NCBI GenBank assembly: GCA_030041095.1
Contig: JASHON010000164.1
Coordinates: 1-64,000, forward strand
Source of the DNA: Terriglobia bacterium
GTDB lineage: Bacteria; Acidobacteriota; Terriglobia; UBA7540
Reading direction: 5' to 3'
DNA length: 64,000 nt
Part shown: one piece after another, positions 3,147-9,292 of the stretch
How positions within the stretch are numbered: the stretch's first letter is position 1
Layout of the letters: each line of letters opens with the position of its first letter
Notes under the pieces: model-generated
The model's input: only the letters and a program-made list of their open reading frames with translations
What the model was told of the DNA's origin: nothing
Databases searched by the model: none
Translations under genes and position numbers: made by a program

Positions 3147-3446
3147 CTAATGCGTAGCGGCCAACACGGAAATGCGCGGCACGCGGATTTGATTCTCACG
3201 CTTGCGCGTTTGGGCAATGTCGTAAGACGACTGCATCCGCATCAACGTGTCCATCTTCACTCCAAAGGCTTTCTCGATACGGAGCGCCATATCCCCGGAG
3301 AGGTCGGCCTTGCCATTGAGCAGACTGGACAACGTAGGACGCGAAACGCGCAAGGCTATCGCCGCTGCCGTGACCGTCAGCCCCGCGGCTTCGATAATCT
3401 CCGTCCGAATGAAATCCCCGGGATGGGGCGGGTTCTTCAGGGGCAT
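3147..3446 (-). CDS. higA: HigA-type antitoxin (XRE family)
   Basis: A 99-residue helix-turn-helix protein of the HigA/VapI addiction-module antitoxin family. The opening 'NPPHPGDFIRTEI' is the family signature. The HTH lies at about residues 25-60 ('LTVTAAAIALRVSRPTLSSLLNG'), followed by 'LSGDMALRIEKAFGVKMDTLMRMQ'. It neutralises the adjacent HigB toxin and, by family precedent, represses the operon. Toxin precedes antitoxin, separated by 18 bp, which is the usual HigBA order. Confidence 0.88.
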   Translation of the reverse strand: MPLKNPPHPGDFIRTEIIEAAGLTVTAAAIALRVSRPTLSSLLNGKADLSGDMALRIEKAFGVKMDTLMRMQSSYDIAQTRKRENQIRVPRISVLAATH

Positions 3447-3464: not shown

Positions 3465-3755
3465 CTAGTGGTAGTCCTCTAAGTTCACGTCGTAAATCTC
3501 GCGCTCTGCCATGTCGATACGAAAGGTTAACCGCCGGTTGGCCGTAACGCTCAGGCTCCATGTGCCTTTGCGGTCGCCCGTCAAAGTATGCGCCTTCCAG
3601 GAGGGGAGCGTCCGCAACTCTTCGGGGTCTTCCATGTCGTCCAGAAACGCGAGCATCTTGCGGAGCTTATCCACCGCATCGGGCGGCACGCCCTTTGCGG
3701 CGTCGTCTGCGTAGAGCTTCTTCAAACCTTTGTGGACAAAGTTCCGTATCTTCAC
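3465..3755 (-). CDS. higB: HigB/RelE-type mRNA interferase toxin
   Basis: A 96-residue toxin of the RelE/ParE superfamily. It begins 'VKIRNFVHKGLKKLY' and carries 'LRTLPSWKAHTLTGDRKGTWSLSVTANRRLTFRID', quoted here by its key words WKAHTLTG and WSLSV.NRRLTF, typical of HigB. By family it cleaves mRNA in ribosomes. I prefer the GTG start at 3755 over the upstream TTG (3809). A TTGACA (3786-3791) and TACAGT (3763-3768, minus strand, 17-bp spacer) promoter places the transcript start at this GTG, which would make the message leaderless, and the protein then begins where other HigBs begin. It is divergent from a second HigB gene, 140 bp away. Confidence 0.85.
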   Translation of the reverse strand: MKIRNFVHKGLKKLYADDAAKGVPPDAVDKLRKMLAFLDDMEDPEELRTLPSWKAHTLTGDRKGTWSLSVTANRRLTFRIDMAEREIYDVNLEDYH

Positions 3756-3762
3756 CTGAACT

Positions 3763-3791
3763 ACTGTAGCCCGTAGCCTAACACTTGTCAA
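3763..3791 (-). promoter_or_regulatory. Promoter of higBA module 1 (leaderless)
   Basis: On the minus strand a consensus -35 TTGACA and a -10 TACAGT are separated by exactly 17 bp. Seven bases separate the -10 from the GTG start at 3755, so transcription would begin at or next to the start codon. A GGCTAC direct repeat lies in the spacer and -10 region and might be an antitoxin contact. No Shine-Dalgarno sequence is present, consistent with leaderless translation. Confidence 0.6.
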
Positions 3792-3860
3792 AGGCTGAGA
3801 TAGGGACAACAGGAACTTCGCACGGCTCGGGCGAAGTTCCTGGCGACCGGCCTCCCTGAC

Positions 3861-3889
3861 TGGACAGTGTGTAATCGCTCGATTACACT
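3861..3889 (+). promoter_or_regulatory. Promoter and palindromic operator of higBA module 2
   Basis: TGGACA (3861-3866), a 17-bp spacer and TACACT (3884-3889) form a sigma70-type promoter. The ATG of the toxin is 7 nt past the -10, so the message should be leaderless. A perfect palindrome GTGTAATCG-CT-CGATTACAC (3869-3888) covers the spacer and most of the -10. Binding there would directly block RNA polymerase, which fits autorepression by the antitoxin encoded downstream. Confidence 0.65.
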
Positions 3890-3895
3890 TGACCT

Positions 3896-4189
3896 ATGTT
3901 GTCGATTCGTCCTTTGCCCGAATTCACCACTTGGGTCGACGGGTTGAAGGATGAGACGGTACGCTGCGTAATCGTCGCCAGGATCAAACGACTGGAGCGC
4001 GGTTTGATGGAAGACGTTCGGCCGGTGGGTGAGGGCTTTTCGGAGTTGCGCATCCATGTGGGCGCGGGATGGCGTCTGTATTTCACCCAACGCGGGACGC
4101 AGCTTATTGTGCTGCTTGTAGGCGGCTCGAAACGAACGCAGAAAAAGGACATCAAGCGGGCCAAAGCACTAGCCGCATTACTGGATTGA
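3896..4189 (+). CDS. RelE/HigB-like addiction module toxin
   Basis: A 97-residue protein of the 'addiction module killer protein' branch of RelE/ParE toxins (TIGR02683-like). Diagnostic segments are 'FTTWVDGLKDETVRCVIVARI', shortened here to its key words WVDGLKD and ARIKRLERG, then 'GEGFSELRIHVGAGWRLYF', 'LIVLLVGGSKRTQKKDIKRA'. The GxGWRxYF core and the C-terminal KxxQxxDI.A motif are the family hallmarks. Toxicity would be mRNA cleavage or ribosome interference by family analogy. The antitoxin gene follows after 12 bp. No ribosome binding site precedes the ATG; the promoter position implies a leaderless transcript. Confidence 0.88.
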   Translation: MLSIRPLPEFTTWVDGLKDETVRCVIVARIKRLERGLMEDVRPVGEGFSELRIHVGAGWRLYFTQRGTQLIVLLVGGSKRTQKKDIKRAKALAALLD

Positions 4190-4201: not shown

Positions 4202-4528
4202 ATGAGCAAACGCATCAAGGTCGCTGACCTGCCCGAGTTCGACGCCGCACACTATCTCGACAGTGAGACTGCCATCGCTGCTTATCTGACCGACATTCTG
4301 GAGGCCAACGATGCGGCTTTGCTGGCATCGGCGCTGGGGGACATTGCCCGTGCTCGGGGCATGACAGAGATCGCCAAGGCGGCGGGGATCACGCGGGAAG
4401 CCCTGTACAAAGCCTTGCGCCCCGATAGCGCACCGCGATTCGATACCGTGAGCCGCGTTTGCGCCGCGTTAGGCGTGCGGTTGGTGGCTCAGCCTGTCCA
4501 TTCCGCCTCCGATGGAGTAGGGCTTTGA
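4202..4528 (+). CDS. Addiction module antidote protein (HigA-like, XRE family)
   Basis: A 108-residue antitoxin of the TIGR02684-like family paired with the preceding killer protein. The N-terminus 'DAAHYLDSETAIAAYLTDIL' is the toxin-contacting region of the family. The HTH is at about residues 55-98 ('MTEIAKAAGITREALYKAL...FDTVSRVCAALGVRL'). A GGAGGAAATC ribosome binding site lies just before the ATG. It likely binds the palindrome at 3869-3888. The two neighbouring TA modules belong to different RelE subfamilies and are not a recent duplication. Confidence 0.88.
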   Translation: MSKRIKVADLPEFDAAHYLDSETAIAAYLTDILEANDAALLASALGDIARARGMTEIAKAAGITREALYKALRPDSAPRFDTVSRVCAALGVRLVAQPVHSASDGVGL

Positions 4529-4562: not shown

Positions 4563-4870
4563 AGGCGGTCTTCATCTCGATTCCGCGTTCAAATGCCGGG
4601 ATTCTTCGCTTCGCTCAGAATGACCCGAGAAGGGCTCAGCGCAACAAAGTCTGGAGGCGCGCGTTTCGCGGCACGCTCGAAAGCATCGCCACGCTCGGTG
4701 AAGGCCAGTGGGCTATACAGGCTGCGGAAAAACTCGACGCCGCCGCGAACGTAGCGCCGGCATCTTGCCGGCCTCCGTTGAATTGAAGGGAGTTGCCGGC
4801 TGGAAGCCGGCGCTACGTCAACTCCCGAAAGAGTTTTTCCGCAGCCTGTATAGCGCCTCCGGCCGCCCGC
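4563..4870 (-). pseudogene. ORF6N relic interrupted by palindromic element
   Basis: The sequence at 4566-4718 together with 4849-4870 parallels the 3' part of the ORF6N relic at 967-1326. The minus strand can still be read as G-R-R-Y-S-P-L-A-F-T-E followed, after a small deletion, by V-A-M-L-S. The element at 4719-4848 is inserted in the Arg-Tyr codons. Only a short piece of the domain survives, so this is a dead copy. The 5' part of the gene is missing, replaced by the end of the large propeller gene. Confidence 0.5.
4719..4848. mobile_element. MITE-like palindromic element, copy 1 (TATA target duplication)
   Basis: The element is 130 bp with perfect 18-bp terminal inverted repeats (CAGGCTGCGGAAAAACTC). 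It is flanked by TATA at 4715-4718 and TATA at 4849-4852, which looks like a 4-bp target-site duplication. Internally it has GCCGGC hairpins (GCGCCGGCATCTTGCCGGC and GCCGGCTGGAAGCCGGC). It encodes no protein and would need a transposase in trans. Related copies lie at 12548-12678 (opposite orientation) and 14069-14171. Confidence 0.75.
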
Positions 4871-8884: not shown

Positions 8885-9292
8885 ATGCATGCCACCGCTT
8901 CTGTGCATCATGGTCCTGCGCGACGCTCTTCAAAAGTCAGAGATGGCGTGCTGACAAACCGGCAGGCGATCCGCCGGCTTAGGACAGCGAAACTAGCCGC
9001 ATCGAGAACCACGTTCTCACGGTTGCTCAAGGTTTCGGAGAATACGATCTTCCGATGGGAAGCAGGAAAGGTGAAGCCGGACCGCCGCGCGGCGCAGACG
9101 TTGGATCATCTCGACCGAGTCTGTGACGTGCTGTCGCCATCGATGGAACCCACCGCGATAGCCAGTTGGCTTGAGAAACCCAACCACGCAATCGAAAATT
9201 TCCGTCCAATCGACCTGCTGGATTCTGAATACGGCCGGCTCAAACTAAAGCCTCTCATCGAAGAAACAGGACTGGCGGTTCAATCCATCTGA
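8885..9292 (+). CDS. ParS/MbcA-like antitoxin with HTH domain
   Basis: A 135-residue protein. Residues about 27-65 form an XRE-like HTH ('LRTAKLAASRTTFSRLLKVSENTIFRWEAG' by its key words FSRLLKVSENTIFRWE). The C-terminal part ends with 'WLEKPNHAIENFRPIDLLDSEYG', key words WLEKPN..IENFRPIDLL, which is the DUF2384/ParS toxin-binding pattern. Antitoxins of this type bind and inhibit RES-domain toxins and repress their own promoter. The gene lies 30 bp upstream of a RES-like toxin gene, the standard order. The ATG at 8885 has AAGGAG 10 nt upstream. Confidence 0.72.
   Translation: MHATASVHHGPARRSSKVRDGVLTNRQAIRRLRTAKLAASRTTFSRLLKVSENTIFRWEAGKVKPDRRAAQTLDHLDRVCDVLSPSMEPTAIASWLEKPNHAIENFRPIDLLDSEYGRLKLKPLIEETGLAVQSI

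Follow-up and report, generated by a model that had tools for sequence, protein, structure and literature searches.

Two type II toxin-antitoxin (TA) operons lie head to head near one end of the window (the whole 64,000-nucleotide stretch of DNA that was analysed), module 1 on the minus strand and module 2 on the plus strand. In our assessment, both are probably autoregulated toxin-first operons in which the antitoxin operator includes the promoter -10, the toxin is made from a leaderless mRNA, and the antitoxin is led. Comparisons with related loci indicate that this predicted combination, in which the toxin is leaderless, the antitoxin is led and the operator merges with the -10, is widespread and no peculiarity of the window. 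The toxin gene comes first in both modules and is separated from its antitoxin gene by 18 nt in module 1 and 12 nt in module 2 (Table 1).

Table 1 Coordinates of the features of both modules in the window.
Feature	Position	Strand	Details
Toxin 1, HigB	3465..3755	-	GTG start 3755; PF05015
Antitoxin 1, HigA, HTH	3147..3446	-	ATG 3446; TIGR02607
-35, module 1, TTGACA	3786..3791 (read 3791-3786)	-	sequence and promoter scan
-10, module 1, TACAGT	3763..3768 (read 3768-3763)	-	sequence and promoter scan
Likely HigA operator, module 1	3763..3784	-	overlaps spacer and -10; imperfect repeat; position conserved
Insertion-sequence tip/hairpin	3805..3837		33 bp, between the promoters, outside the regulatory unit
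-35, module 2, TGGACA	3861..3866	+	sequence and scan; TTGAC in relatives
Predicted operator, module 2	3869..3888	+	GTGTAATCG-CT-CGATTACAC; perfect palindrome, 9-bp arms 3869-3877/3880-3888
-10, module 2, TACACT	3884..3889	+	sequence, scan and relatives
Toxin 2, HI1419-type RelE/ParE toxin	3896..4189	+	ATG 3896; TIGR02683, PF05973 Gp49
Antitoxin 2, HI1420-type	4202..4528	+	ATG 4202; TIGR02684; led, GGAGG

Both toxins had originally been read as HigB, which holds for module 1 and not for module 2. Toxin 1 matches PF05015 (Pfam, 2.5e-12, 47.5 bits vs. a cut-off of 27) and aligns with the PDB HigB structure 4mct (4.9e-16, residues 1–96), with conservation of the H/R/H active-site positions, which are presumably catalytic and would serve the ribosome-dependent mRNA cleavage expected of a HigB toxin. 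Antitoxin 1, directly downstream, matches TIGR02607 (NCBIfam, 3.1e-25, 87.8 bits vs. a cut-off of 47.7), and a PF05015 toxin followed by a TIGR02607 antitoxin identifies module 1 as HigBA. For toxin 2 an assignment to HigB was rejected, given that it has no PF05015 match, its Pfam match is to PF05973 only, and it scores 116.6 bits with TIGR02683 (NCBIfam, 5e-34, cut-off 62.85). Its antitoxin matches TIGR02684 (NCBIfam, 1.6e-34, 117.9 bits vs. a cut-off of 53.7); with both curated cut-offs passed and the toxin first, module 2 is of the HI1419/HI1420 type. We take the TIGR02683, HigB and BrnT toxins all to belong to the RelE/ParE superfamily; higB of E. coli K-12, which we assume to represent another Pfam family, was left out of the comparison.

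The promoter hexamers named in the original prediction were confirmed to the base by reading the sequence and were found again by an independent scan of 1.9 kb, which returned three promoter-like sites against 0.5 expected from shuffling, two of the three being the toxin promoters. On the minus strand, TTGACA and TACAGT are separated by a 17-bp spacer and followed by seven nucleotides (AGTTCAG) before the GTG (3755–3753); on the plus strand, TGGACA and TACACT are also 17 bp apart, with six nucleotides (TGACCT) before the ATG (3896–3898). No Shine-Dalgarno (SD) sequence of at least four bases was found in the sequence upstream of either toxin start, whereas antitoxin 2 is preceded by GGAGG (GCGGAGGAAATC-ATG, 4202), and on both points the earlier reading stands. 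It had not mentioned a purine-rich, SD-like site before antitoxin 1 (AAGGGAGAAGAGACG-ATG, 3446), where the SD-like AAGGGAGAAGAG lies upstream of HigA.

The 6–7 nt gap between -10 and start was predicted from the window alone, together with a call to survey related genomes, and our survey indicated that it is conserved. A locus was counted as positive when a TANNNT hexamer ended 5–7 nt before a start that, for the relatives, had been set by homology independently of the promoter. Counted over related sequences, which are not independent events (a dependence that the existence of separate operator classes and of three toxin families lessens without removing), the rule held in 56 of 69 TIGR02683 toxins, all nonredundant and with reliable starts (shuffles: mean 4.8, maximum 12) and in 38 of 55 HigB toxins (mean 2.8, maximum 9). 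The gap was exactly 6 nt in 45 of the 56 TIGR02683 positives, and the HigB relatives L189, L190 and L089 keep a gap of 6–7 nt. BrnT, a third toxin-first family, was positive in 17/26 cases with starts placed by a conserved N-terminal motif (shuffles: mean 1.2, maximum 6) and in 15/28 with starts taken mechanically; the BrnT of the source genome itself is among these positives. Several loci that are negative by the rule narrowly miss it, with TACACT 4 nt or TACAGT 8 nt before the start. With regard to phylum, the TIGR02683 gap was present in 25/32 Acidobacteriota and 30/35 Proteobacteria, and also in the single Chloroflexi contig.

Control families of the same phylum, which give a background from small samples of Acidobacteriota only, scored 0/29 for cold-shock genes (SD of at least five bases in 20/29) and 3/29 for the antitoxin-first Phd/YefM genes (SD of at least five bases in 10/29). 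HicA, counted as an extra toxin-first family, reached 2/29, a count made uninformative by ambiguous gene order and starts. The close TIGR02683 relatives and part of the HigB relatives had been inspected before counting; the BrnT and control sets were counted by the same rule with their promoters unseen beforehand (six control loci per family were displayed for strand handling).

The missing SD is also a property of the families. An SD of at least five bases precedes 1/69 TIGR02683, 1/55 HigB and 4/26 BrnT toxins. Within operons, an SD of at least four bases was present before 55/67 antitoxins vs. 6/67 toxins in TIGR02683 loci, and before 46/51 HigA vs. 8/51 HigB genes. In an alignment of the 45 TIGR02683 promoters with a 6-nt gap, information was high in the -35 (TTGAC), in the palindrome and in the -10 (TACANT), but only 0.01–0.33 bit per position in the six bases that lead from the -10 to the start. 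The base at -1 is a pyrimidine in 36/45 of these promoters, and in 44/45 the first base of the start codon is A or G, which fits a YR initiator with transcription starting at the start codon. Taken as a prediction, a toxin mRNA that lacks a leader, combined with an antitoxin that has one, is strongly supported by the gap, the missing toxin SD and the antitoxin SD across families, and the controls do not show the pattern. Nonetheless, led members exist both in HigB (Rts1-type, Shigella and Pantoea homologues) and in TIGR02683 (Klebsiella, Proteus and a Pasteurella phage). Neither family thus depends on leaderlessness, and the leaderless form is the common one, though not the sole one.

The palindrome of module 2 (GTGTAATCGCTCGATTACAC) was overlooked in the original prediction. 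Its right arm enters the -10, such that the first five bases of TACACT form the right end of the predicted operator, and it is retained in dozens of relatives. Across TIGR02683 loci the outer TGTA...TACA is near-invariant, as expected from the double use of the right end as -10. Among 54 sites, the outer four bases carry 4 mismatches in the right arm and 11 in the left, which is compatible with an additional constraint on the right arm, bearing in mind that the numbers are small and that the right arm had been selected to begin with TA.

Half-sites also vary with the recognition helix of the antitoxin: GTAATCG pairs with [TS]REALYKALR, GTAGCC with SRESLYKALS, GTATCC with GRESLYKALS, and GTAAAC or GTGAAC with REGLYKALS. 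The pairing has exceptions (e.g., L012, L018, L020), but the association persists when overall antitoxin divergence is removed (partial Mantel r 0.45; 0/999 permutations). A natural test of this half-site code is offered by locus L028, where a hybrid operator (GTATTCG) upstream of the toxin accompanies a hybrid helix, GRESLYKALR (GRES...KALR). These observations make a strong case for the palindrome as the predicted operator of antitoxin 2, and the correspondence between operator and helix provides a readable code for TIGR02684-type antitoxins of the module 2 kind. The operator of module 1 is likely, with weaker evidence than that of module 2: at the same place, its relative L089 has GTAGC-N7-GCTAC, and clear palindromes occur there in other HigB relatives (e.g., L112). 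The operator placement proposed here matches that of the footprinted operator of HigA2 from the V. cholerae higBA2 operon, toxin-first as here, which is TGTACGC-N5-GCGTACA and extends from after the -35 over the -10 (PMC11006873).

We propose that each module would be an autoregulated type II operon, with the toxin gene first, driven by one sigma-70-type promoter, in which an antitoxin dimer binds the operator between -35 and -10, including the -10, and represses its own operon. With a -10 ending 6–7 nt before the toxin codon, transcription, as predicted from the hexamer spacing, would start at or within ~2 nt of that codon. Translation of the toxin would then begin at a leaderless 5′ end, and the antitoxin, whose gene follows on the shared mRNA, would start from its SD. 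The likely purpose would be to keep toxin synthesis below that of the antitoxin although the toxin gene comes first. We infer the transcription start site, the leaderless translation and the lower toxin output from sequence. Unequal translation of toxin and antitoxin is likely. A shift of the balance with ribosome state, as first suggested, is speculation: leaderless mRNAs are known to differ in how they are initiated (see PMC8630535 and PMC3898074), but the best-known precedent of such a shift, the specialised ribosomes made by MazF, is disputed (PMC7167474).

The two modules do not fit this explanation equally well. A GTG start and a 7-nt gap, as in module 1, are less favourable for leaderless initiation by E. 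coli-type ribosomes. All leaderless starts of S. meliloti are AUG (PMC3616915). Together with the imperfect operator, the GTG and the 7-nt gap count against the proposed explanation for module 1.

The short gap could instead be a by-product of compact promoters, in which the operator covers the -10, the gene starts as near as it can and being leaderless plays no part in regulation. In its favour, TA loci are compact and mobile, and operator and -10 are indeed fused in module 2. We consider this account unlikely, however, as it leaves unexplained why the gap is fixed at 6–7 nt with its bases free to vary, and why most antitoxin-first Phd/YefM operons in this phylum retain a leader. The Rts1-type HigB also shows that a led form under operator control is viable.

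The leaderless reading also depends on the starts themselves, and the original prediction had named use of an upstream in-frame start with an SD as the observation that would speak against it. In module 2 an in-frame TGA (3890–3892) lies two codons 5′ of ATG 3896, which excludes an upstream start and secures the ATG. In module 1 the frame remains open upstream of GTG 3755 to TTG 3809; this TTG has no SD and lies 5′ of the -35. A relative at 69% identity (L089) has an in-frame TGA two codons 5′ of its GTG, which is evidence against a longer form of toxin 1 beginning at the TTG, and the toxin 1 protein aligns from residue 1 with the solved HigB. The open frame would suit a distant promoter that gives the real mRNA, led but SD-less, with the near promoter being minor. 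This is improbable, since the scan found no other promoter-like site in the divergent region, the TGA closes the reading frame before the ATG in module 2, and there is almost no conservation 5′ of the -35 in TIGR02683 promoters.

Between the modules lies a hairpin (3805–3842, with a 15-nt inverted repeat at 3810–3842), 33 bp of which match the end of an insertion-sequence-like element beside a transposase-like ORF on another contig of the genome (G000 contig C42; 97%) and a further such tip on contig C108 (96%). Because the intergenic hairpin is the tip of an insertion sequence, the divergence of the two modules appears accidental, and they were probably brought together by mobile DNA; divergent coupling was rejected on the same grounds. 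Although the head-to-head promoters are ~70 bp apart, it is very improbable that they belong to a single unit in which the modules share the intergenic region and regulate each other. That region is an insertion-sequence tip with other copies in the genome, the sequence upstream of close module 2 relatives is unrelated, and the operators of the two modules differ.

Further observations concern the neighbourhood of the modules. Just 3′ of module 2 (4700–4860) is a palindromic repeat of ~150 bp that occurs in at least 40 places in the genome at 91–100% identity (40 of 253 first-look candidates were scored), a large dispersed, REP/MITE-like family. An Xre/MbcA/ParS-type antitoxin-like protein (PF09722) at 8885–9292 is possibly part of a third TA locus. 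On the minus strand, a GIY-YIG fragment and an ORF6N-domain protein (689–1326) suggest that the DNA close to the TA modules is accessory and decaying.

In M. tuberculosis, leaderless transcripts predominate among TA gene pairs (32/37 with a primary start), and the centre of their TANNNT -10 lies 7–12 bp upstream of the transcription start (Cortes et al. 2013, PMC3898074); the -10 here is TANNNT too. However, M. tuberculosis belongs to the Actinobacteria, in which about a quarter of all genes are leaderless and TA operons are mostly antitoxin-first, whereas the loci described here are from Acidobacteriota and Proteobacteria, and the control genes, tested in Acidobacteriota, are led. Unlike the M. 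tuberculosis TA genes, the pattern here marks toxin-first modules, and in module 2 the predicted operator takes in the -10.

HigBA of the Proteus vulgaris plasmid Rts1 has proteins homologous to those of module 1, the same gene order and an HTH antitoxin. The promoter region of an identical HigB (L334) has a -10-like TATAGT ~30 nt before the ATG and, unlike module 1, looks led. PaaR2 of E. coli O157:H7 and lambda cI have leaderless mRNAs from promoters ending at the start codon, as proposed here, and for PaaR2 the start was demonstrated by 5′ RACE and N-terminal sequencing (PMC8630535). In those systems the leaderless gene is the regulator, whereas here it would be the toxin. An Acinetobacter match (L162) was considered as the higBA2 of PMC5906591 and rejected, as its size does not fit.

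The open-licence papers searched, mostly judged by title and abstract, contained no prior report of a leaderless higB or of leaderless toxin-first TA systems. Leaderless TA transcripts as a kind are already known from M. tuberculosis (PMC3898074); the toxin-first, operator-fused version, common to several toxin families and rare in the controls, did not turn up in these papers. How the ratio is controlled in reverse TA systems has been stated as not known (PMC5906591), and the conserved pairing of a leaderless toxin with an SD-led antitoxin may offer a simple, testable answer to the problem of keeping toxin below antitoxin in toxin-first modules. Tentatively, and at somewhat less than an even chance, this could be a general rule: in several groups of the RelE/ParE superfamily (TIGR02683, HigB, BrnT), type II operons with the toxin first would have a leaderless toxin, an SD-led antitoxin and a -10 made from the antitoxin operator, with the ratio set by leaderless vs. 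SD initiation and able to move with ribosome subunits or initiation factors.

Toxin-first modules were also seen clustered elsewhere: in genome G007 (contig C14), a TIGR02683 module adjoins a HigB module in tandem (L005 and L098). In the Granulicella plasmid pACIX904 (L156, 812–994), the annotation places the toxin start 37 codons into the gene, although the full frame and a promoter of the same layout are present. This is probably an automatic mis-annotation caused by a true start without SD, and leaderless toxin starts may account for annotation errors of this kind.
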